A stretch of 12,075 nt of DNA, taken from Chloroflexota bacterium. GTDB lineage: Bacteria > Chloroflexota > Anaerolineae > Anaerolineales > Villigracilaceae. The stretch is taken from contig JAKANW010000044.1 in assembly GCA_021823555.1 (NCBI GenBank), forward strand, positions 1-12,075, read 5' to 3'. The translations under genes were made by a program, and so were the position numbers. Each line of letters begins with the position of its first letter. Positions within the stretch are counted from its first letter, which is position 1. The notes under the pieces are model-generated. The model worked only from the letters and a program-made list of their open reading frames with translations. It made no database searches and was not told the DNA's origin. Of the stretch, positions 1 through 11,755 are shown one piece after another.

Positions 1-2015
1 AGCAGGTAGAGGGTATCGCCATTGACAGCCATGTCAATCCCATCCTGGAGTTCCGGGACCTGGTTGCCGAAGAAAAAGTATGGGCTGTCCACGAAGGTGC
101 TGTCTCTGCCCACGTAGACCCATACCGCGCGTGACTGCGCATCCAATACATAGAGGTTGCCTGAGTCAAGTGTGATGGCAGTGATTCGTCCCCAGTTTGT
201 GTTGGATGGCGGCGGAAGGGAGCTGGCCAGGGGCACCTGGCCAGGTGCACAATACAGCAGGTTGCCTGCGGCATCCACGCCCAGCACGGTGGAATTGTTG
301 GCCGAGTTCAATAAGGGCAGCGCCTGGATATCCACCAGCGGTCCGACCTGATACTCGCCATACTGACCGGGTTCGCAATTAAAGTTGTTGTCCATTTGGA
401 AGCCGCGACCGGTTAATTGGGCGTGCAAAACTTTCCCCGTGCGCGCGTCCAGCAGGTACAGGTCTGTATCCGTTGCCGCCATGCGGCTGATCTCGATCCC
501 CAACCCGCTGCTAAAGGCAGGCTGGAATTGCAGGCGGGCGATGCCCAGCAATTGGTCAAGTCTCGTGTTTGCTTCCTGGCGCAGGGCTTGGGTTTCACCG
601 GTCTTGCGGTAAGACTCGGCTTTGTCCACGTAGAGCAGCACAGACTTCCACGCATCGCGCTGCATGACCGGGTCGCTCAAGCTGGCAGCCTGTGTGCGTG
701 CATTGCTGGCCAGGCCAAGGTAATTATCATATTGCAGGCTGCGTCCGTAGCGGAAATAGACCACCGTTGCAATGGTAACTACGACAAGCGGGATCAACAG
801 CGCGATGAAGGTCATGGCATAAGACGGAAGTTCCGGGCTTTTTCCCGATTCGTCCCCCGGCAGCAGGCGCGGTAGGAACTTCTGCAGACTCTGCTTGAGC
901 CGCTCCATTCCCGAACGCCAGGCTTGCATCCCGTTGACAGCGGTCTTTGCAACGCGACGCGTCCGTTGGGATGGCTCGCGCGGCCTGGCAGGAGGCGCGC
1001 TCTCTTCCCGCGCCGGAAGCTTCTCCTCGGGCGGCGGTTCCGGTGCTTCGACTTTTGGCTTGACGCGCGGAATGGATAGTGGAAAATCACGTTCTGTCCG
1101 TGCCCGCGTGGACGTTGTGGACAATGGAGGCGGGGTCAGCGTCGTTTCTGTAGAAGGAGTCTCTTCGGGCTGGGGTGGGATGGCGTATGCCGAAGGTTGA
1201 ACCACGTGTGAGGGGTAGGAGTCCGGGGGCGGCTCGGGCGAAGACTCATTTTCTTCAACGGCGAGCAATTTCTCGGTGGAGGTAGGAGCCGGGGCAGGTT
1301 GTGCTATCGCTGCTCCGGCGGGTGAATCATCAGCAGTCCGCAATAAAGTCAAATCCCCCGCGCCTTCCGTTGCCTGGATCAAGACTGCGTGCAAATCTTC
1401 GCTTGTCAGGGTCAGCAGGCGGCGGCGGGTAGCCTCCAGGGGGGCGGGGTTCGCGCTGGCCAGGGTTGATTCCCATGCCGCCGGGATTTTGCCCGCCAAC
1501 AGCAGCCGGTCATGAGACTGGAAAGTGATCTGTGTAAAGTAATGAGGGGCGGCCTGGCTTACGCCAAGTCCCTTCCCGGATAGGCCCGGCTCGAAGATAT
1601 GGCGGGATTCCCGGCTGAGTAGAAAGGCGTGCATTGGGCCGCTTAGCAGCAGGGTGCATTGCGCATCCCGCAGCGCGGCCAGGGCCAGCCAGCCGATGGC
1701 ATATTGCCCGCGTCCACTGGTAGCGATGTTCCGTTCCAGCAGCGGACGGTTAACAGCTTCTGTCGCGGCCCGCAAGGCAGAGGTCATCGGTCCTGGGGAT
1801 TGAAAGAATTGCGAAGCTGCGCCGTTGGCTAATTGCATATACTCGGCAGTGGTGAAGGCAGCATTGCCTGCCAGCAGCAGATAAACCACCAGCCGATCCT
1901 GCTCACGGCCGCGGGCTGCTTTGCGCGGCGGCATAACAGCTACCAGGCCGGGCAGGGAAGAGGCTTCTTTTCCGTCGGTACGATAGAGGGGAGCGAGAGT
2001 CAAATCGAGGAGCAT
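1..2015 (-). CDS. Membrane protein with degenerate PP2C-like domain and propeller-like outer domain (C-terminus beyond window)
   Basis: The frame is open from the ATG at 2015 to the window edge (671 codons), so the C-terminus is missing. Residues 1 to about 215 follow the order of a PPM/PP2C phosphatase. The usual V-G-D-S-R-x-Y strand aligns with LLLSGPMHAFLL (122-133), and the usual D-R-L-L-L-x-S-D-G strand with HDRLLLAGKIP (168-178), so the metal-binding Asp residues are absent. A Pro/Glu/Ser-rich linker (about 230-370) follows, then one membrane helix (about 401-420). Next come TPR-like helices (about 425-495) and repeated strands such as LYLLDARTGKV and LYVLDAQSRAVWV that resemble a beta-propeller. 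The inferred topology is cytoplasmic pseudophosphatase, membrane helix, outer sensor or binding domain. It is divergent from the GNAT gene. The fold calls are by eye; the frame and the membrane segment are secure. Confidence 0.75.
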   Translation of the reverse strand, partial: MLLDLTLAPLYRTDGKEASSLPGLVAVMPPRKAARGREQDRLVVYLLLAGNAAFTTAEYMQLANGAASQFFQSPGPMTSALRAATEAVNRPLLERNIATSGRGQYAIGWLALAALRDAQCTLLLSGPMHAFLLSRESRHIFEPGLSGKGLGVSQAAPHYFTQITFQSHDRLLLAGKIPAAWESTLASANPAPLEATRRRLLTLTSEDLHAVLIQATEGAGDLTLLRTADDSPAGAAIAQPAPAPTSTEKLLAVEENESSPEPPPDSYPSHVVQPSAYAIPPQPEETPSTETTLTPPPLSTTSTRARTERDFPLSIPRVKPKVEAPEPPPEEKLPAREESAPPARPREPSQRTRRVAKTAVNGMQAWRSGMERLKQSLQKFLPRLLPGDESGKSPELPSYAMTFIALLIPLVVVTIATVVYFRYGRSLQYDNYLGLASNARTQAASLSDPVMQRDAWKSVLLYVDKAESYRKTGETQALRQEANTRLDQLLGIARLQFQPAFSSGLGIEISRMAATDTDLYLLDARTGKVLHAQLTGRGFQMDNNFNCEPGQYGEYQVGPLVDIQALPLLNSANNSTVLGVDAAGNLLYCAPGQVPLASSLPPPSNTNWGRITAITLDSGNLYVLDAQSRAVWVYVGRDSTFVDSPYFFFGNQVPELQDGIDMAVNGDTLYL

Positions 2016-2052
2016 GGCTGCCAAGCGTAAGAAAGAAGGGAATTCCACTATC

Positions 2053-2058
2053 ATTATA
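2053..2058 (-). promoter_or_regulatory. Candidate -10 box (TATAAT) for the minus-strand gene
   Basis: The minus strand reads TATAAT here, a perfect -10 hexamer. It would start transcription near 2046, giving a leader of about 30 nt before the ATG at 2015. No good -35 hexamer lies 16-18 bp upstream. The plus strand reads TATACT at 2055-2060 within the same bases, so the element could also serve the divergent GNAT gene, whose ATG at 2131 is about 70 bp away. Confidence 0.4.
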
Positions 2059-2130
2059 CTGGTAAAATTTGCCAGACACTTTCTTGGAAGGGATTCTGCC
2101 GCACCCAAGCGTGCGGACATTTTGCGCCAC

Positions 2131-3138
2131 ATGGATTTTCAAGTTCACCCCGATTTTTCATCCCTCGATCCAGCGGAATGGAACGCGCTGGTGGAAGAGG
2201 GTGTCACCGATGTGCCTTTCCTGCGCTATGAATACTTAAGCGGCTGGTGGCAAACCCTGGGCGGTGGCGAATGGAAGCAGGCCAAGCTCGTGCTCGTCTC
2301 TGCCCGCGAGAATGGCCGCTTGGCGGGGATCGCCCCCTTGTTCCTGGTGGAACATGATGACCGCCCGGTTTTAATGCTGGTGGGCAGTATCGAAATCTCA
2401 GACTACCTGGATTTGATCGTTCGCCCGGCGGACTTGACGTGCTTCCTCTCCGGGCTGGTGGACTTCCTCGTCTCCACCTACCCTGATAGCTGGCGCGGCT
2501 TCGATTGGTATAACCTGCCAGATGCGTCTCCCACTCTCGCGGCCCTCGAAGCGGAAGCCGGTCGACGCGGCTGGACCTGCACGGAGGATGTTTACCATCC
2601 CACCCCGGTCATTGCCTTGCAGGGCAGTTATGATGCCTACCTCGCAACGATTGATAAGAAGCAGCGGCATGAGATACGTCGCAAAGTCCGCCGCGCCGAA
2701 GAAGGGCACAGTCTGCGTTGGTACATCGTGGAAGATGAAACGACGCTTGATTCCGAGATTGACGCTTTTCTGAGCCTGATGGAGGACGACCAACAGAAAG
2801 CGGAATTCCTGACGCAAGTCATGCGCTCCCAGATGCGATCCGCCGTCCATGCTGCTTTTCGGGGCGGCTGGTTGTGGCTGGCCTTCCTGGAAGTGGATGG
2901 GGAGAAGGCCGCTACAGCGCTTAACTTCGATTACAAGAATCGCCTGTGGGGATACAACTCCGGTGTGAATCGCCGCTTCATGGAACTCTCGCCCGGCTGG
3001 GTATTGTTGGCGCACGTCCTGCAATGGGCCGCGGACCATGGCCGCGCTGAATTCGATTTCATGCGCGGCGATGAGGAATACAAGTATCGCTTCGGCGCGG
3101 TCAAACGTCACGTCATGCGCGCCAGACTGACACGTTAG
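2131..3138 (+). CDS. GNAT-family acyltransferase, CelD/FemAB-like (BioF2-like domain)
   Basis: A 335-aa protein that resembles the CelD/BcsL and FemAB-like branch of the GNAT superfamily (Acetyltransf_6 type). Members are thought to transfer acyl or aminoacyl groups to polysaccharides or peptidoglycan precursors; the substrate here is unknown. Visible signatures are the basic helix KKQRHEIRRKVRRAE (about 174-188), the strand WLWLAFLEVDGEKAATALNF in the second GNAT half, and the C-terminal FDFMRGDEEYKYRFGA that is characteristic of the family. No signal peptide or membrane helix is seen, so it is probably cytoplasmic. An upstream in-frame ATG at 2014 would add 39 residues, but these are unlike the family N-terminus and overlap the divergent start. 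The ATG at 2131 gives MDFQVHPDFSSLDPAEW, a typical opening. No strong ribosome-binding site precedes either start. Confidence 0.88.
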   Translation: MDFQVHPDFSSLDPAEWNALVEEGVTDVPFLRYEYLSGWWQTLGGGEWKQAKLVLVSARENGRLAGIAPLFLVEHDDRPVLMLVGSIEISDYLDLIVRPADLTCFLSGLVDFLVSTYPDSWRGFDWYNLPDASPTLAALEAEAGRRGWTCTEDVYHPTPVIALQGSYDAYLATIDKKQRHEIRRKVRRAEEGHSLRWYIVEDETTLDSEIDAFLSLMEDDQQKAEFLTQVMRSQMRSAVHAAFRGGWLWLAFLEVDGEKAATALNFDYKNRLWGYNSGVNRRFMELSPGWVLLAHVLQWAADHGRAEFDFMRGDEEYKYRFGAVKRHVMRARLTR

Positions 3139-3480: not shown

Positions 3481-3720
3481 ATGCAGACCCGCGATGATTG
3501 GCCGCGTTGGGCCGCAACGCTGCAACGTTATCATCTCGATCAACTTGCTGCCTGGACGCTGGAAGCGGGAGGTCCTCTTGCCCTGCTCAGCGCCCAGGCG
3601 CTTTATTTTGGTCGTTCCTTCCTCGGCTCCGGTCGCGCCGATGCGCTGGCCCGCATGTTGGAGAATGATGCTGAAACACGCGCCTTTGCGGATTACTTGC
3701 AAAAAGAGGCAGCGCGATGA
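3481..3720 (+). CDS. Small hypothetical protein, first gene of the membrane-complex run
   Basis: A 79-aa, mainly helical, soluble protein beginning MQTRDDWPRWAATLQRYHL. It has no signal peptide, membrane helix, cysteine pair or motif I recognise. Its ATG is directly preceded by a -10 box, and its stop overlaps the next start by four bases (ATGA, 3717-3720), so the two genes are probably translationally coupled. A role as a small accessory or scaffold subunit of the downstream complex is inference from position alone. Two aromatic/Leu-rich helices (about 7-27 and 32-48), followed by an amphipathic C-terminal helix ending in KEAAR, could form a helical hairpin. Confidence 0.72.
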   Translation: MQTRDDWPRWAATLQRYHLDQLAAWTLEAGGPLALLSAQALYFGRSFLGSGRADALARMLENDAETRAFADYLQKEAAR

Positions 3721-4448
3721 TTGAACTGTCCGTTATCATCGGCTCGCTTTTGTTGCTGCTGGCATTGACCTTCCTGCGCCGCAAGTCGCATCCTGTTTTT
3801 CGTTCCATCCCGGCGTTGACGCGTCTTTATCGCGCCATCGGCTTGAGTGTGGAGGATGGCACCCGTCTGCACGTTTCCCTCGGTCGCGGCGGCTTGTTGA
3901 CCGGCCACGGGGGTGCTTCTCTGGCCGGGCTTTCGATGCTGCGTTATCTGACCGAACGCACTTCCTCCAGCGACAAGCCGCCGGTTGCCACCTCGGGTGA
4001 TTCAGCCCTGACGATGTTGAGTCAGGATACCATGCAGGCAGGCTATAAGGCCTCCGGCGCCGATGAGCTTTACCAACCCACCACCGGACGTTTGGGTGGA
4101 ATGACTCCCTTCTCTTATGCAGCCGGTACGATGCCCATCCTTCGCGACGAGAATGTATCTGCCAATGTCTTGATCGGTAACTTCGGTCCCGAGGCGGCTT
4201 TGATCGTTGAGTCAGCGGAGCGCGTCAATGTACCAACCCTGGGCGGGAGCGATGATCTGGCCGCGCAGGCGGTGTTATATGCTGCTGCGCAGGAACCTTT
4301 GATCGGGGAAGAGTTATTTGCCGCCGGGGCTTATCTTGGCGCTGGCCCATCTCACAATGCCAGCTTGACCGTTCAGGATATCTTGCGCTGGCTACTCATC
4401 CTGTTTCTGTTGGGTGGTTCAGCGCTTAAATTATTGGGGATCATTTGA
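3717..4448 (+). CDS. DUF6754-like membrane protein
   Basis: A 243-aa protein with one membrane helix at each end (about 4-20 and 220-243) and a conserved soluble domain between. RRK just after the first helix suggests the middle domain faces the cytoplasm. Conserved-looking segments are HVSLGRGGLLTGHGGASLAG (about 52-71), PPVATSGDSALTMLSQDTMQ, LIGNFGPEAALIVESAERV, and AAAQEPLIGEELFAAGAYLG before the last helix. From memory these match the DUF6754 proteins annotated in Chloroflexota; the biochemical role of that family is unknown to me. It overlaps the upstream gene by four bases and the downstream ATG by one (TGATG at 4446-4450). No catalytic motif was identified. Confidence 0.82.
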   Translation: MIELSVIIGSLLLLLALTFLRRKSHPVFRSIPALTRLYRAIGLSVEDGTRLHVSLGRGGLLTGHGGASLAGLSMLRYLTERTSSSDKPPVATSGDSALTMLSQDTMQAGYKASGADELYQPTTGRLGGMTPFSYAAGTMPILRDENVSANVLIGNFGPEAALIVESAERVNVPTLGGSDDLAAQAVLYAAAQEPLIGEELFAAGAYLGAGPSHNASLTVQDILRWLLILFLLGGSALKLLGII

Positions 4449-5059
4449 TGCGCATTCTTTCTGCTGCCATCGCGATTGCCATCGGCCTGCTTGTGTTGGC
4501 AGGGTATTTTGTCCCGGCATTGGCTGGGATGCAGGCCGAGTTGCTTAATTGGGCTATGATCCTGGCTGGGATGACAGTGTTGCTGGGAGTCTTTAATCTG
4601 GTCTCGGTACATGGCAATAAGATCGCCCAGCGTGAAAAAGGCCGCGGTTACAGCGCCTTGTTGATCATATCCCTGCTGGCAACTTTTGTATTTGGCTTGT
4701 TACTTGGCCCGGACCACCCTGCGATGCAGTTGCTTGTAAATGGAGTCGTCCTGCCTGTGGAAGCCTCGCTGATGGCGATCCTTTCGGTCACCTTGTTGTA
4801 TGCAGCCATTCGCCTCTTGCATTATCGTTTGGATGTGATGAGCATTGTCTTCCTGGTTACTGCTTTGCTGATCCTGCTGGGTTCGGCCTCCCTGCCCTTT
4901 GGGGAGATCCCATTTGTTGGCGCTACGCTACGACCCTGGATCATACAGGTTGGAGCATTGGGCGGCGCGCGCGGTATCCTGATTGGCGTGGCGCTGGGTA
5001 TGTTGACGACCGGGCTGCGTGTTTTGCTGGCGCTCGATCGCCCATACGGGGGCAAATAA
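4448..5059 (+). CDS. Six-helix integral membrane protein, function unknown
   Basis: A 203-aa polytopic protein with about six hydrophobic segments (roughly 2-25, 33-56, 67-87, 99-123, 129-148 and 164-196), separated by short loops such as HGNKIAQREKGRG. I do not recognise a transporter signature. The ATG at 4448 overlaps the preceding stop (TGATG); a TTG one codon earlier (4445) is possible but less likely. Its TAA overlaps the next ATG by one base (TAATG at 5057-5061). A second protein of similar size and helix number lies downstream at 7697, so the two may form a paired membrane core around the zinc-ribbon protein. That is inference from layout only. Confidence 0.82.
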   Translation: MRILSAAIAIAIGLLVLAGYFVPALAGMQAELLNWAMILAGMTVLLGVFNLVSVHGNKIAQREKGRGYSALLIISLLATFVFGLLLGPDHPAMQLLVNGVVLPVEASLMAILSVTLLYAAIRLLHYRLDVMSIVFLVTALLILLGSASLPFGEIPFVGATLRPWIIQVGALGGARGILIGVALGMLTTGLRVLLALDRPYGGK

Positions 5060-7695
5060 TGGCTGACGTGAAGTGCCCGGTTTGCGGTCAACAGAACCCG
5101 GCCGATGCTACCGTCTGCGGGAATTGCAAGTCGCCGCTGACCGGGGCGCCTGCTCCCATCCAGCCCGGAGAAATACCGACTAAAAAGTCCACCTCTGAGC
5201 TCGAACCGATCCTGCCCGAATGGCTGCGGGATGCGCGTGACAAGGCGCGCCAGTCTGCAGCAGGTGATCTTGAACAGATTCAACCGCCCTCCCAGGCTGC
5301 ACAGCTGGCAGGGACATCCGCTTCAGATTTGCTGGCTGGCTTGCAAGCCCAGTCTGCTGATGAAGAAGAAGAGATTCCCGACTGGCTTTCCAGCCTCACC
5401 GGGAAAACCGGGGCAGGCGGAAAGGCCCAACCCGAGGAACCACAGGCAAGTCATTGGGTGGAATTGGGGGGCCGAGGCGATTCCAAACCCGAAGATAAAG
5501 GTGCAAATATTCCACCTGCCAAATTACCAGTTGAGTCTGGGGAAACAAGTCAAAACGAACTGCCTCCCTGGCTGGCGAGTCTCACTGCCGGACAGCCGGA
5601 AAGTGCTGGCTCGGATGAAAGCCAGCCCGGTTGGTTAAAGGATGCCGAGACACCTCCACCTGCAGGACCGGCCAGTGAAACGGGAACAACTGCGGGGGCG
5701 GTTGGATCGGTCGCCGAGGCGGAGTTGGCCGCGGCGGGGATCGAATCCACGCCTGATTGGTTAAGCAGCCTGCAGGCAGATGCGACCGCTCCTGCGGAAA
5801 CATCCGAAGAACCGATCATGTCGGATACTGAATTGCCCGACTGGTTGAAAGGGGAAGAACCGGCTGCTCCTGAAAGGCCCGTTGCAAGTTCTGATGCGCC
5901 GGATTGGTTGAAAACCCTGGGAGTGGAACAAGCTATTGCACCGGCTGAGTCCCAGCCTGCAACGGTTGATAACGAATTGCCAGCCTGGTTAAAAGGGGAA
6001 GAACCGGCTGCTCCTGAAGAGCCTGTGGCAAGCTCTGAGACGCCGGATTGGTTGAAAACCCTGGGAGTGGAACAAGCTGTTGCACCGGCTGAGTCCCAGC
6101 CTGCAGCAAAGCCTGCGACAGTTAATGATGAATTGCCAGCTTGGTTGAAAAGTGAAGAAGATGAGGAAGGGCAAGGTCCTCGATCTTCTGTTCCGCAGAA
6201 TGCCGGTTTGACTGGCGCGCTGGGAAGCACAACAGAACCCCCCAAACCGACGGCAGCCTTTACGGAGGCCCCGGCTGCGGCTGAGTTGGCCCCAAGTGAA
6301 CCATTGGACTGGCTCAAATCCCTGGACACACCCGAAAAGGCTGCACCTGCTTCCGCTGTTCCCCCGGCCTCCCCAGCATTGACTCCGGAAGGCAGCGAGA
6401 CCGTCTTTACAGGGGAACCACTTTCCGCCGGTGATCTCGATTCCTTGCTCAAAGACATGCCTGACTGGCTATCGGACGCGGCCGCATTGGACACGTCGCA
6501 CACAGCGGGCGAGGAGCTGCCGCTTGTTCCCAGCGATGATGCGATTTCTCCTGCCAGCCTGCCCTCATGGGTACAAGCCATGCGTCCGGTGGAGGCTGCC
6601 TCAGGGGTGATGTCTCCGGGCGCGGCTGAGGATGATAAACTCGAAACGCAGGGCGCCCTGGCCGGTTTGCATGGCGTACTTCCCTCTGCGCCGCTGGCTA
6701 TCCCGTCAGGCAAGCCCAAGGCTCAATCCATTAAATTACAAGTTAGCGAAGAACAGCAGACACATGCTGCCCTGCTGGATGAAATCCTGGCGGCAGAGGC
6801 GAAGCCCGAACCAATCACGTCTGGCCGGTTGTTATCTTCCCAAAAGATTTTGCGCTGGATCATTGCGATATTGCTCTTTATTGTGCTGGCAGGAGCGGTC
6901 TTCTCGGGTACAAGTCTCTTCCCCTTACCGCTCGGTCGCCCAGCGGAAGTTATGTCTGCATTGTCTGCAGTGGATCTCCTGCCCCAGGGTGCTCCTGTGT
7001 TGGTGGTCTTTGATTATGAGCCATCACTGGCAGGGGAGATGCAGGCTGCTGCCGCGCCTCTTCTGGATCATCTGATTGTCGCGCGCCACCCGCGATTGGC
7101 CTTGCTCTCGACCTCTGCTACCGGCTCGGTGCTGGCAGAACGTTTCTTTGCGGGACCTTTGGCCGGCTCCAATTACCGGCGCGGGAACGAATACGTGAAT
7201 CTGGGCTACCTTCCCGGCGGATTAAGCGGAGTGCGCGCTTTTGCACAAGACCCCGTCTCGGCGATGCCTTTTACAGTGGATGGCAATTTGGCTTGGGAAT
7301 CCGCGCCGCTGCAAGGAGTGGGATCGTTCCAGAATTTTGCGGCCATCATTGTTATTACTGATAGTGCGGATGCGGGTCGCACCTGGATTGAGCAGGCTGG
7401 TCCATTACGCGGTCCGGCGCCGTTGTTGGTAGCCTCCAGCGCGCAAGCCGGGCCGATGATACAACCCTATTATCAATCCGGGCAGATCAATGGGCTGGTA
7501 ACCGGCTTGTATGACTCGGCTGTCATGGAATCTTATCTCGAACAAAATAATACCAATTCCCCGACCACGGCGCGACGTTATTGGGATGCCTATAATCTCG
7601 GCTTGTTATTGACTGTGGCATTATTGCTCGGCGGCAGTTTGTGGAGTATGGTAGCAGGCTTGCGTGAGCGGGCTGCGGAAGCAGAGGCCGGGTAG
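5059..7695 (+). CDS. Zinc-ribbon, P-x-W-L-repeat membrane protein
   Basis: An 878-aa modular protein. Residues 6-23 form a zinc ribbon (CPVC, ten residues, CGNC), probably cytoplasmic. Residues 40 to about 560 are a low-complexity Pro/Ala/Glu/Ser region. It carries about 13 copies of a short motif, P-[DEAPGS]-W-[LV], often followed by K/S and two residues (for example LPEWLRD, IPDWLSSL, TPDWLKTL, LPSWVQAM). Residues 601-620 are a membrane helix. About 225 residues of alternating strand/helix sequence follow (VLVVFDYEPSL, AAIIVITDSAD, PLLVASSAQ), probably outside the membrane. A second helix lies at about 845-866, with a short charged tail. Starts and stops are coupled with both neighbours. 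The spaced Trp motifs look like docking peptides for partner proteins. I know of no assigned function. Confidence 0.85.
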   Translation: MADVKCPVCGQQNPADATVCGNCKSPLTGAPAPIQPGEIPTKKSTSELEPILPEWLRDARDKARQSAAGDLEQIQPPSQAAQLAGTSASDLLAGLQAQSADEEEEIPDWLSSLTGKTGAGGKAQPEEPQASHWVELGGRGDSKPEDKGANIPPAKLPVESGETSQNELPPWLASLTAGQPESAGSDESQPGWLKDAETPPPAGPASETGTTAGAVGSVAEAELAAAGIESTPDWLSSLQADATAPAETSEEPIMSDTELPDWLKGEEPAAPERPVASSDAPDWLKTLGVEQAIAPAESQPATVDNELPAWLKGEEPAAPEEPVASSETPDWLKTLGVEQAVAPAESQPAAKPATVNDELPAWLKSEEDEEGQGPRSSVPQNAGLTGALGSTTEPPKPTAAFTEAPAAAELAPSEPLDWLKSLDTPEKAAPASAVPPASPALTPEGSETVFTGEPLSAGDLDSLLKDMPDWLSDAAALDTSHTAGEELPLVPSDDAISPASLPSWVQAMRPVEAASGVMSPGAAEDDKLETQGALAGLHGVLPSAPLAIPSGKPKAQSIKLQVSEEQQTHAALLDEILAAEAKPEPITSGRLLSSQKILRWIIAILLFIVLAGAVFSGTSLFPLPLGRPAEVMSALSAVDLLPQGAPVLVVFDYEPSLAGEMQAAAAPLLDHLIVARHPRLALLSTSATGSVLAERFFAGPLAGSNYRRGNEYVNLGYLPGGLSGVRAFAQDPVSAMPFTVDGNLAWESAPLQGVGSFQNFAAIIVITDSADAGRTWIEQAGPLRGPAPLLVASSAQAGPMIQPYYQSGQINGLVTGLYDSAVMESYLEQNNTNSPTTARRYWDAYNLGLLLTVALLLGGSLWSMVAGLRERAAEAEAG
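5830..6155 (+). repeat. In-frame tandem repeat, 48-52-residue period, within the zinc-ribbon gene
   Basis: Two full units start at 5830 and 5974 (144 bp, 48 codons), and a third, partial unit starts at 6130. Unit two is 12 bp longer. The best conserved part is 5897-5961 against 6041-6105: 65 bp with one mismatch. Each unit encodes ELP-x-WLK-x-EEPAAPE, then PDWLKTLGVEQ and APAESQPA. Near-identity at DNA level, including third codon positions, points to recent duplication or gene conversion. Confidence 0.85.
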
Positions 7696-7696
7696 T

Positions 7697-8362
7697 ATGG
7701 CGGTCTCCACTGACATCATCACGGGCGCTCTCAGCTTCCTGTTTACGCTTTTGATCTTCAGTTATCTTCTGGGAGATAATCCGCTTTTCCGCATAGCAAC
7801 GTACATCTTTGTCGGCGTGGCCAGCGGTTATGTGGTGGTGGTAGCCATGTGGCAGGTTATCTATCCGCGGCTGCTCTATCCGCTGGTGCATGGATCCCCC
7901 CTGGACCGTGCCCTGCTCGCCGTTCCGTTCTTGCTGAGTGGCCTGATGCTAATGAAAGTGACGCCGCGTTTCAGCCAGGTTGGCAGCCCCTCGATGGCGT
8001 ATCTTGTGGGTGTAAGCGCTGCTGTGACCGTGGGTGGGGCAGTGATTGGTACCCTTTTCCCGCAAGCTTTTGCCGCCATCAATGCCTTTAGCTTGCCGAT
8101 GAACTTTGAGACCCTGTTCGATGGGGTTTTGATCCTGATTGGCGCAGCGACCACGCTGGTCTATTTTCAATTCAGCGCTCGTACCGTTTCGGGTGGGGCA
8201 GTACACCGTTTCGGCCTGGTTGAAGTGCTTGCCTGGGTTGGGCGGATCTTCATAGCCATTACGTTGGGCGTATTGTTTGCCGGGGTTTTCCTCGCTGCGT
8301 TGGCGGCCCTCATTGAGCGTTTTGCTTCGTGGGCTGACTTTTTTGCTTTATTAATCCATTAG
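7697..8362 (+). CDS. Second six-helix integral membrane protein, function unknown
   Basis: A 221-aa polytopic protein with about six hydrophobic segments (roughly 7-26, 33-55, 71-87, 99-122, 138-158 and 173-205). No transporter or enzyme motif is recognised. The ATG at 7697 lies one base after the TAG of the zinc-ribbon gene, which fixes the start; longer in-frame readings back to 7664 would run inside that gene. The stop at 8360-8362 is five bases before the MutL-like gene. The polar stretch PRFSQVGSPSM after helix 3 and SARTVSGGAVHRFG after helix 5 are likely loops. With the 203-aa protein at 4448 it could form the membrane core of the complex; I cannot show homology between them by eye. 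Confidence 0.83.
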   Translation: MAVSTDIITGALSFLFTLLIFSYLLGDNPLFRIATYIFVGVASGYVVVVAMWQVIYPRLLYPLVHGSPLDRALLAVPFLLSGLMLMKVTPRFSQVGSPSMAYLVGVSAAVTVGGAVIGTLFPQAFAAINAFSLPMNFETLFDGVLILIGAATTLVYFQFSARTVSGGAVHRFGLVEVLAWVGRIFIAITLGVLFAGVFLAALAALIERFASWADFFALLIH

Positions 8363-8367
8363 GTCTT

Positions 8368-8892
8368 ATGCCTGTTTCTTTGATCGAAGGCGACTCTCTT
8401 CTGGCTGTAGACATCGGCGCGGCGACGACGCGCGCGGTGCTTTTCGACGTGGTCGAAGGGCAGTATCGTTTTTTGGCCTCCGGGCATGCACCCTCCACGG
8501 CCGAGGCACCATTCAAGGATGTAAGCGAGGGCGTCCGGAATGCGGTCACTCGTTTGCAGACCATCATTGGACGCACCCTGCTGGACGATGCTGGCGGTTT
8601 GATCTCGCCGACCCAGTCCAACGGCTCCGGTGTGGATGCGTTCGTCGCGACCCTGTCAGCCGGGCCGACGCTCAAAGCTGTCATCGTTGGCCTGCTCTCG
8701 GATGTGTCGCTTGAATCGGCGCGGCGGCTGACGGAGACCATCTATGCCCGCATCGTGGATAGTGTCGGCTTGAACGACCGGCGCAGAGCTGATGAACTGA
8801 TTGACGGTTTGCTGCGCCAGCGTCCTGAAATCATTGTGGCAACTGGCGGCACCGATGGCGGCGCCTCACGCTCAATCCAAAAGCTGTTGTAG
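8368..8892 (+). CDS. Glutamate-mutase-L-like ASKHA protein, N-terminal part ending at an in-frame TAG
   Basis: 174 residues, opening with the ASKHA phosphate-1 strand LLAVDIGAATTRAVLFDVVEG (Asp15, Gly17). It contains LKAVIVGLLSDVSLESARR and ends EIIVATGGTDGGASRSIQKLL. This is the N-terminal third of the MutL/GlmL-type family, named for a gene beside glutamate mutase in clostridia; its precise role is unsettled. No glutamate mutase subunits appear here, so the family name should not be read as function. The TAG at 8890-8892 stops translation, but the same frame continues as the family does (see 8941-10125). ATG 8368 follows the previous stop by five bases, with only a weak AGGT ahead. If not read through, the product would lack most of the ATPase fold. 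Confidence 0.78.
   Translation: MPVSLIEGDSLLAVDIGAATTRAVLFDVVEGQYRFLASGHAPSTAEAPFKDVSEGVRNAVTRLQTIIGRTLLDDAGGLISPTQSNGSGVDAFVATLSAGPTLKAVIVGLLSDVSLESARRLTETIYARIVDSVGLNDRRRADELIDGLLRQRPEIIVATGGTDGGASRSIQKLL
8890..8892 (+). other. In-frame amber codon splitting the MutL-like gene
   Basis: The codons before and after are in one phase: K-L-L, TAG, then P-I-G-L-A-S-Y-L-T-P-S-D-K-R-P-A-V-L-F-A-G, running straight into the second fragment. No insertion or deletion is needed. One base change from GAG (Glu) or CAG (Gln) explains it. TAG also ends other genes here (3136-3138, 7693-7695, 8360-8362), so wholesale amber reassignment is unlikely. A nonsense mutation, a sequence error or local readthrough remain possible. 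Confidence 0.9.
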
Positions 8893-8940
8893 CCGATTGG
8901 TTTAGCCAGTTACCTGACGCCAAGTGACAAGCGTCCGGCA

Positions 8941-10125
8941 GTGTTGTTTGCGGGTAATCAGAAGATGGAGGCCGAGGTCAAGAGCATGTTCGAGTCGCTG
9001 ACTTCGTCCCTGCACTTCAGCCCGAATGTACGGCCCTCGCTTGAAACGGAAGATCTCGATCCGGCTGCCCGTGAGTTGGCGCGGTTGTTTATCGAAGTAC
9101 GCAAGAAACAACTTAAAGGGGTGGATGTGGTTGATACCTGGTCGAACGGCCACGTTCTACCTACGGGTTATGCCACCGGGCGCATGATGCGCTTCCTAAG
9201 TAAAGTCTATGGATCGGCCAAAGGCATCCTGAGCGTGGACATCGGCGTCTCGGCTGCCTTGGTCTCGGCAGGATTCAAAGGCAAATCCACCCTGGGAGTA
9301 TATCCGCAGTTCGGCCTGGGTGAGAATTTGCCCGGTTTGCTTAATTACACCACCCTGGAAGACATTCTGCGCTGGTCCCCGCTGGATATTTCCGTGGGCG
9401 TTTTGCGCGACTACCTGTTCCAAAAGTCGCTCTATCCCTCAACCATCCCCGCTACGAAAGAAGATCAGGCGATCTCCCAGGCGGTTGCACGGCAGGCGCT
9501 TTATCTGGCGATACGCACCGCTCAACGCGACTTCCCGCGCAATGTGACCACGCTCAAAGCAGGACAACTACCGCTCTTCGAGCCGATCCTTGCCAGCGGC
9601 GGCGTACTCTCGGACGCGCCCTCCCCCGGACAAAGCTTGTTGCTTTTGTTGGATGCCCTCCAGCCGGTTGGCGTCACTACGATCATTTTGGATCAGAATA
9701 ACCTGCTCCCGATTTTGGGCGCGGCGGCAGGACGGAACAATTTGTTGCCGGTGCAGATACTCGAATCTGGCGCATTCATGAGTGTGGGGACGGTCGTCTC
9801 GCCGGTTGTTTCTGCAAGCTATGGCATGCCCATCCTGCGCGGACGGCTGGCCTATCAGGATGGCACGGAAGCCCGGGTTGAGCTTAAGTATGGAAGTATC
9901 GAGGTCCTGCCCCTGCCTGCCGGTCAGGTGGCGCGTTTGATCCCGCAGTTGAGTCACGGCGCCGATATTGGCTTCGGCCCTGGCCGCATTCCGCCCAAAT
10001 TGGATGTCACCGGCGGCGCGCTGGGCGTGGTTTTTGACGGACGCGGTCGTCCTCTGGACCTTCCGGCTGACCCGGTTCGGCGGCGTGACCTTATCAAGAA
10101 ATGGCACTGGACACTGGGAGGCTGA
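8941..10125 (+). CDS. Glutamate-mutase-L-like ASKHA protein, C-terminal part
   Basis: This frame holds the remaining two thirds of the MutL-like protein. With 8368-8892 and the bases between, the full frame is 585 codons (amber at codon 175). A second ASKHA-type strand, ILSVDIGVSAALVSAGFKG (Asp at codon 291 of the joined frame), is followed by VYPQFGLGENLPGLL. Later come LASGGVLSDAPSPGQSLLLLLDALQPVG (the usual adenosine-binding region) and LDVTGGALGVVFDGRGRPL. The nominal GTG at 8941 has no ribosome-binding site and would cut off the conserved PIGLASYL segment, so it is not a credible natural start. Without readthrough or reinitiation, this part would not be made. The stop at 10123-10125 is four bases before the next ATG. 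The ATPase is likely cytoplasmic and may act on the membrane subunits encoded upstream (inference). Confidence 0.78.
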   Translation: MLFAGNQKMEAEVKSMFESLTSSLHFSPNVRPSLETEDLDPAARELARLFIEVRKKQLKGVDVVDTWSNGHVLPTGYATGRMMRFLSKVYGSAKGILSVDIGVSAALVSAGFKGKSTLGVYPQFGLGENLPGLLNYTTLEDILRWSPLDISVGVLRDYLFQKSLYPSTIPATKEDQAISQAVARQALYLAIRTAQRDFPRNVTTLKAGQLPLFEPILASGGVLSDAPSPGQSLLLLLDALQPVGVTTIILDQNNLLPILGAAAGRNNLLPVQILESGAFMSVGTVVSPVVSASYGMPILRGRLAYQDGTEARVELKYGSIEVLPLPAGQVARLIPQLSHGADIGFGPGRIPPKLDVTGGALGVVFDGRGRPLDLPADPVRRRDLIKKWHWTLGG

Positions 10126-10129
10126 ACCG

Positions 10130-11185
10130 ATGCTGGCGCCGCTTCATCATATCCTGCCATTGACAACCATTGTGCGCGAGCGTCTCCTGCCCGTGCCTGG
10201 TCGGGTGATCGTGCACTTGAATCAAAAAGTCAACGCCACTGAGGTGGTCGCTGAGGCTTCCTGGGCGCGCGAACATATCCTGATTGATGTGGCTACTGTG
10301 CTGCACATTTCTCCTGCCGCGGCCGACCGGCTCCTGCGTTGCAAAGTAGGGGACCGCCTTTCCGCCGGCGCGGAAGTGGCCGTGGGACGCGGCATTATCC
10401 GAAAGACGATCCAAACTCCGAAGGAAGGCCGCGTGGTTGCAGCCGGGGGTGGGCAGGTTCTGTTGGAAGTTGGCGAGACTGGCGTGCAATTAAGGGCGGG
10501 CATACCGGGCAACGTTGTACAGGTTATCCCGGAGCGCGGGGTCGTGATTCAAACTGCCGGCGCACTGGTGCAGGGCGTGTGGGGCAATGGCCGTATGGAT
10601 ACCGGCTTGATGGCTAATCTGGCGGAGAAAGCCGATTCTGTTTTGTCTGTTGCCCGCCTGGATATGAGTCTGCGCGGTTCAATCATCCTGGGAGGAATCT
10701 GTAAGGATGCCGAAACCCTGCAGGCTGCCGCCGACGTGCCGGTGCGCGGCTTGATTCTTTCAAGTTTGTTCCCCTCACTGTTACCGCTGGCGAGCCAGAT
10801 GCGTTTCCCGATTATCGTTACCGATGGGTTTGGCGCGCTGCCGATGAATTCGGTCGCCCACCGCCTGTTGAGCACCAATGTCAAACGGGAAGTCACGCTC
10901 AACGCCGAGGCCTATGACCGTTACAAGGGCACCCGCCCTGAGATCATCATCCCATTGCCTGTTTCTCAGGAACCGCCCATGCCGCATGATGTGGAGGCCT
11001 TTGCCCCTGGTCAGGTTGTACGCATGCGCCGCCCTCCATCCCTGGGCGGGATCGGCACCATCACCTCCCTGCGTCCGGGGTTAACCCTGTTGACCAGCGG
11101 ATTGCGTGCGCCTGCAGCGGATGTCAAAATGGAATCTGGCGAGACAGTGATTGTGCCTCTCGTAAATCTTGAAGTTGTGGGATAA
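10130..11185 (+). CDS. Conserved hypothetical protein with barrel-sandwich-like and KOW-like segments
   Basis: A 351-aa soluble protein. The start is supported by GGGAGG at 10116-10121, eight bases ahead, and by a four-base gap after the MutL-like stop. Residues about 71-112 (VGDRLSAGAEVAVGRGI, then TPKEGRVVAAGGGQVLLEVG) read like the paired strands of a lipoyl/biotinyl or RnfC-type barrel-sandwich. No modifiable Lys in an MKM-type turn is present, so it is not an obvious carrier. Residues about 165-270 are mixed strand/helix (GSIILGGICKDAETLQAAADV, FPIIVTDGFGALPM). The end, GQVVRMRRPPSLGGIGTITSL, resembles a KOW/SH3-like strand-loop. The coupling suggests it works with the ATPase. I do not recognise a named family. 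Confidence 0.83.
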   Translation: MLAPLHHILPLTTIVRERLLPVPGRVIVHLNQKVNATEVVAEASWAREHILIDVATVLHISPAAADRLLRCKVGDRLSAGAEVAVGRGIIRKTIQTPKEGRVVAAGGGQVLLEVGETGVQLRAGIPGNVVQVIPERGVVIQTAGALVQGVWGNGRMDTGLMANLAEKADSVLSVARLDMSLRGSIILGGICKDAETLQAAADVPVRGLILSSLFPSLLPLASQMRFPIIVTDGFGALPMNSVAHRLLSTNVKREVTLNAEAYDRYKGTRPEIIIPLPVSQEPPMPHDVEAFAPGQVVRMRRPPSLGGIGTITSLRPGLTLLTSGLRAPAADVKMESGETVIVPLVNLEVVG

Positions 11186-11200
11186 TAGAAAGAACTAGTT

Positions 11201-11210
11201 TGAAGAGGAG
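11201..11210 (+). promoter_or_regulatory. Ribosome-binding site for the LPGTG protein
   Basis: TGAAGAGGAG lies eight bases before the ATG at 11219. It is the strongest Shine-Dalgarno in the window, in contrast with the overlapped or near-overlapped starts upstream, and it fixes the start of this gene. Confidence 0.7.
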
Positions 11211-11218
11211 CGTGTTCT

Positions 11219-11755
11219 ATGTACGAAGGTGATGAAAATAACTTCGATGCCGCACCCCCGGAAGAATCCAGCAACCGAACATTCCTGATTGTCGCTGGGA
11301 TCATGGGCGGCTTTGTACTTCTTTCTGTCGCCTGCGTAGCTGCGTATGCATTATTCTTCCTGCCGAGGCAGCAACAGGCCCAACGAGCCTCAACAGATGC
11401 CACCACGACTGCCGGCGCGTACATCGCTCAGGCGTTGACGGCGACCTTCCAGGCGCAAATCCTGCCGACCGCGACGCTCACCCCACTTCCCAGCCCGACC
11501 CCGGTTCTGGCCCAACCCACCTCGACCGATACTCCCCTCCCGCCCACTTCTGACCCTTCGACCGCCACTGTAGCCGCGGCCCTGACCCAGGCCGCCAATG
11601 CCCAACTTACAGTGGTGCCAACCTCCAAGGCGCTGCCTGGTACTGGTTTTGCAGATGAGTACGGCGGCCCTGGCCTCGTGGTCATGGCGATTGCATTGGT
11701 AGTGGTGATCTTCCTGGCCCGCAGGTTAAGGGGCACGCCGGTTAGAAATCGCTAA
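11219..11755 (+). CDS. LPGTG-ended surface protein with N-terminal membrane helix
   Basis: 178 aa. An acidic N-terminus (MYEGDENNFDAAPPEESS) precedes a membrane helix at about 22-47, then a Thr/Ala stretch. Residues about 85-120 are Thr/Ser/Pro-rich (TPLPSPTPVLAQPTSTD), a linker style common in Chloroflexota exported proteins. LPGTG at 139-143 (bases 11633-11647), nine spacer residues, a hydrophobic segment (about 152-167) and the basic tail ARRLRGTPVRNR together match a sortase sorting signal. The N-terminal helix lacks a clear signal-peptidase site, so the protein may keep two membrane anchors. It follows the 351-aa gene by 33 bases and ends just before a terminator, so it is probably last in the transcript. 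No sortase gene is in view. Confidence 0.82.
   Translation: MYEGDENNFDAAPPEESSNRTFLIVAGIMGGFVLLSVACVAAYALFFLPRQQQAQRASTDATTTAGAYIAQALTATFQAQILPTATLTPLPSPTPVLAQPTSTDTPLPPTSDPSTATVAAALTQAANAQLTVVPTSKALPGTGFADEYGGPGLVVMAIALVVVIFLARRLRGTPVRNR

Follow-up and report, generated by a model that had tools for sequence, protein, structure and literature searches.

The contig JAKANW010000044.1 of a Chloroflexota bacterium of the order Anaerolineales (12,075 nucleotides; "the window" hereafter means this whole stretch) carries a gene for a GlmL-like ATPase of family PF13941 whose reading frame is interrupted by one amber codon, TAG, at codon 175, a position at which most relatives encode Glu. The interruption is a singleton substitution without visible history. 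Very probably, the stop is either an error of the consensus sequence or a very young null allele; an error taken alone is only slightly favoured and has close to an even chance. No finding suggests a new mechanism, or a stop that the cell uses as a signal.

The frame runs from ATG 8368 to the TGA at 10123-10125 (585 codons) and contains exactly one internal stop. The two pieces were searched separately and proved to be consecutive parts of one family, PF13941:

8368 to 8892, + strand: N-terminal piece of the GlmL-like ASKHA gene; 174 codons followed by TAG; covers positions 2-135 of the PF13941 profile (E 1.3e-27)
8890 to 8892, + strand: the in-frame TAG, codon 175; Glu or Asp in full-length homologues
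8893 to 10125, + strand: C-terminal piece; 410 codons, ends in TGA and has no further in-frame stop; covers positions 139-447 of 450 of the PF13941 profile (E 1.8e-30); under apparent purifying selection

The original prediction, made from the letters alone, of a single TAG in an otherwise open frame with both sides in the same phase was borne out by the frame itself and by these consecutive matches.

Family membership and fold

The pieces scored 97.1 and 106.6 bits against PF13941 and the frame read through the stop scored 210 bits, at a Pfam gathering cut-off of 27, and the gene therefore belongs to this family. Its earlier label as a MutL-like ATPase holds for the Pfam family named MutL but not for the mismatch-repair protein MutL, since the family is that of the glutamate-mutase accessory proteins (GlmL or glutamate-mutase-L type). 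The product is, judged by its profile scores, not a proper GlmL: with NF040745, the equivalog model of GlmL (methylaspartate mutase accessory protein) with a cut-off of 475 bits, the read-through frame reached 96.9 bits, and two intact relatives reached 100.7 and 103 bits, also far under the cut-off.

Among the matches listed, the closest full-length protein was 83% identical and the closest N-terminal fragment 84%; identity of 100% was reached only by P0121 and P0241, the pieces of the window itself. Most of the named relatives are from genomes of Anaerolineales or of other Chloroflexota. The best other matches of the two pieces are similarly identical (83-84% for the N-terminal and 83% for the C-terminal piece), and a chimeric join at the stop was therefore rejected. 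The structure model of the read-through frame had a mean predicted local distance difference test score (pLDDT) of 90.5. Foldseek returned a chain of NMHase as top match, and also acetone carboxylase and the diol dehydratase reactivating factor (TM-scores only ~0.3). The ASKHA (actin-like) fold was matched in PilM (E 1.1e-7), FtsA (E 1.6e-7) and a chain of the Apc core complex (E 6.8e-10), with a query-length TM-score of only ~0.3 and a large root-mean-square deviation. No sequence match to solved structures was found at E-values up to 1.

Codon 175 and selection after the stop

Codon 175 encodes Glu in 119 and Asp in one of 120 full-length homologues, the listed best of 3261. Since these proteins are full-length by selection they cannot contain proteins cut at codon 175, and the genomic loci, which are compared as DNA and do not have this bias, are the better guide. 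The site is covered by 48 of the 49 loci compared (L025 lies outside it) and is a sense codon in all 48: Glu in 41, Asn in six, which are distant relatives (at the 42-45% level), and Asp in one. An in-frame stop within the matched stretch was found in none of the 49 loci. Of the two residues, Glu or Gln, that had been expected at this codon, Glu was confirmed by both sets and Gln occurred in neither.

The gene was matched in 366 of the 400 genomes of the order that were searched; no more than three candidates were scored per genome, and weak matches may belong to other members of the family. Stops were read through in matching, and 149 of the 150 rows listed (by eye count) contained no internal stop. 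The exception, genome G262 (L061:5001-6755, - strand), keeps Glu at codon 175; its stops, one TAG and one TAA, lie downstream in a stretch around residues 189-206 where the frame is locally shifted, and it was therefore rejected as a second case. With one interrupted relative in 150, loss of the gene is rare among the matches listed. In three close relatives, for which every candidate was scored, one match each was found, which suggests that there is no second copy of the gene. The N-terminal fragments (120 listed of 213, the window's own included) ended at scattered positions from residue 120 to residue 300, with no peak near 174. Their ends gave no sign that the family is repeatedly split; clean ends, that of the fragment P0174 discussed below included, may be contig ends or true stops alike.

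Compared with nine relatives, the rate of nonsynonymous substitution (dN) after the stop was 0.84-1.41 times that before it; the same ratio in five pairs of intact relatives was 0.77-1.20. The ratio of dN to the rate of synonymous substitution (dS), omega, was ~0.07-0.12 for the five of nine relatives that allowed dS to be computed, with synonymous sites near saturation. A branch test took in the first 60 of the 120 homologues together with the window; 40 tips, the window included, were left after short branches had been dropped. With the tree shape fixed, the ratio of the normalised terminal branch of the window in the C-terminal part to that in the N-terminal part was 1.22; the median tip had 1.11 and 15 of the 39 other tips were as high. 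These substitution patterns show purifying selection on the downstream part. Neither relaxed selection nor several lesions, the marks taken for a pseudogene, could be established. The earlier statement that the rest of the gene shows no decay, which was taken to argue against an old pseudogene, stands as far as the absence of clear decay is concerned, on the dN ratios, the branch ratio and the conserved columns considered below. Since clear decay is absent, the stop is either not present in the organism, or recent, or tolerated.

Consensus error or young mutation

The likeliest single cause is a consensus error (a base-call error, damage or strain collapse) in a 12-kb environmental contig, by which a one-base change would have turned a Glu codon into TAG, once, in an otherwise functional and conserved gene; in that case the organism itself would carry an intact gene. 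The slight tilt towards an error comes from conservation: the gene is widely kept (366 of 400 genomes matched) and present once in each of the three close relatives, and the seven-gene block in which it lies (3717-11755) has kept order and strand in 31 of the 32 loci with enough flank. Therefore, a fixed null allele would be unexpected.

A real, very young nonsense mutation, which would leave this strain with a null or strongly reduced allele, is a serious candidate at somewhat less than an even chance. Translation would then end after 174 residues, in the middle of a helix, and most of the ATPase function would be lost; in the model, residue 175 lies inside the predicted helix 167-183 and not at a domain border, and the truncated piece would miss most of the fold. 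A single clean substitution, with no other sequencing trouble noticed, agrees with such a mutation, but the conservation of gene and block speaks against it, as does the fact that the one listed match with internal stops acquired them by a frame shift and not by a nonsense change.

That the base is an error and not a new mutation is inferred, and several observations weigh against it. By eye, the TAG site is not within a homopolymer, and the other gene stretches checked in the window are all open. The dN ratio of 1.41, obtained with the relative L034, is above the range of the intact pairs. At columns conserved to at least 95%, the window departs in 6 of 201 after the stop vs 0 of 83 before it; as many departures after the stop are present in 17 of the 120 listed homologues. 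The excess at conserved columns and the L034 ratio lean weakly to relaxed selection and hence to a real mutation. Furthermore, P0174 (173 amino acids, on a 1322-base contig), one of the 119 other N-terminal fragments listed, has a clean end at the position that corresponds to residue 174, which may be a contig end or a stop.

Recent inactivation, read-through and assembly error had been offered as the three outcomes: a recent stop, or none at all, agrees with the data, and neither read-through nor recoding received positive support.

Read-through, restart and decay

Three other genes of the window end in TAG, and their relatives end there too. For two of them the relatives end at most five codons from the same place (40 of 43 and 46 of 46 loci), and for the third, a FemAB-like gene, the best match reaches residue 371-374 of 374 in 8 of 8 genomes. 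As a side observation, a FemAB-like relative in G003 (L067) has one TGA within the match. In nine gene stretches, both pieces of the GlmL-like gene included and the downstream 351-aa gene left out, no in-frame TAG was present in 2796 codons. A genome-wide reassignment of amber was rejected on the TAG-ended neighbours, which match the ends of their relatives, together with this count.

Amber suppression had been proposed earlier as something to be looked for through pyrrolysine genes or an excess of in-frame TAG. No in-frame TAG was present in the nine gene stretches just described, and PylS was over the cut-off in none of 12 relatives, with weak matches in six of them, in a search that gave a match in 13 of 14 control genomes and a match over the cut-off in one of the 14; pyrrolysine is unsupported by these data. 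No RNA structure was found at the stop, the folding of 100 bases being weaker than the shuffled mean (z +0.66), and no Rfam family reached threshold in the window; neither search revealed a recoding structure. The window has no tRNA genes.

Read-through of the amber codon, by a natural suppressor tRNA, a leaky context or recoding, would give some full-length ATPase with the stop acting as a brake on expression. The base following the TAG is C, which is a weak termination context. The purifying selection on the downstream part also favours read-through. Belinky et al. 2021 (PMC7918605) argue that stops which lie in frame and are followed by conserved sequence are widespread among bacteria, and that many of them are likely to be read through. 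Against this stand the three genes that end in TAG where their relatives end, the PylS result in the relatives, and the folding and Rfam results at the stop, and we regard read-through as improbable. Its narrower form, a real and tolerated amber codon at which leaky termination would yield little full-length ATPase, with the lineage-specific stop as a brake on the dosage of a conserved seven-gene membrane-associated system, is more doubtful still. If read-through were shown, the gene would join the cellular cases in which an amber stop is tolerated.

The claim that the downstream part has no usable start was overstated. GTG 8941, ATG 8965 and ATG 8986 follow the TAG in frame, the last of them with a GAGG:

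8974 to 8988, + strand: possible restart; GAGG at 8974-8977 (by eye), eight-base spacer and ATG 8986, giving 379 amino acids; the motif is also present in the intact relative L001

The best Shine-Dalgarno score computed by script was 4/6 for ATG 8986 and likewise 4/6 for the native ATG 8368, and an entry of 379 aa from the window itself, the length given by ATG 8986, is present in the protein database. Judging from these signals, a restart at ATG 8986 is possible. In the listed best 120 homologues, the residue at ATG 8986 is Leu in 107 and Met in 12. Since the GAGG and ATG are present in intact L001, the motif is no adaptation. A split ATPase is possible but unsupported: that the gene became two, a 174-aa N-terminal part and a cooperating C-terminal part of 379-394 aa from ATG 8986 or GTG 8941, is very unlikely because the cut falls inside a predicted helix, the motif is shared with an intact relative and the fragment ends have no peak near 174, even though starts, Shine-Dalgarno score and database entry could be read in its favour. 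For annotation it matters that the database has a 174-aa and a 379-aa protein where relatives carry one.

An old pseudogene, to which the premature stop might point, is scarcely credible with one stop in 585 codons, an intact frame, the low omega (~0.07-0.12 in five of nine relatives, dS near saturation) and a branch that is not markedly longer after the stop than before it.

The conserved block and related systems

The conserved seven-gene block with a GlmL-like protein is the more interesting matter. Three of its products, the DUF6754 protein among them, are of membrane type; the others are a zinc-ribbon/PxWL-repeat protein, the GlmL-like protein and proteins of 351 and 178 aa. Besides the GlmL-like gene, it consists of:

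3717 to 4448, + strand: DUF6754 protein, at the head of the conserved block; PF20539 match (E 1.2e-22) and synteny
4445 to 5059, + strand: 204-aa protein of the conserved block, membrane-type by eye
5059 to 7695, + strand: 878-aa protein with a weak zinc-ribbon match (under the Pfam cut-off) and PxWL repeats; ends in TAG
7697 to 8362, + strand: membrane-type protein by eye; ends in TAG; the frame list starts it at GTG 7664
10130 to 11185, + strand: 351-aa conserved protein without Pfam match
11219 to 11755, + strand: 178-aa protein of the conserved block with LPGTG, a hydrophobic stretch and a basic tail near the C-terminal end (by eye)

The 878-aa protein has 12 short PxW(L/V) motifs at residues 52-507, some of them within near-identical longer repeats. 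Outside the block, a protein of at least 710 aa without Pfam match is encoded at 3-2132 (- strand) and runs off the contig. The window yielded no recognisable cobalamin enzyme, and no mutase subunit gene was recognised beside the GlmL-like gene within these 12 kb, which were searched with Pfam and, for part, with NCBIfam, several proteins having no match. No paper on DUF6754 was found in the literature searched, and the phrase "glutamate mutase L" was not met for Chloroflexota among the best-matching literature.

The gene resembles the cases of Belinky et al. 2021 (PMC7918605) in its isolated stop and conserved downstream part. That study demands a stop in two or more genomes to lower the chance of a sequencing error; the window gene differs in that the same stop was found in none of the 48 loci and was not met in a second genome. 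With GlmL, the methylaspartate mutase accessory protein, it shares the Pfam family, at a score far under the equivalog cut-off of NF040745. The closest counterpart is the PF13941 MutL or "glutamate mutase L" of Anaerolineales, from which the window gene differs by the one in-frame TAG, absent in 48 of 48 loci covering the codon, and to which it is alike over its whole length, with 76-83% identity to the 30 best-listed proteins.
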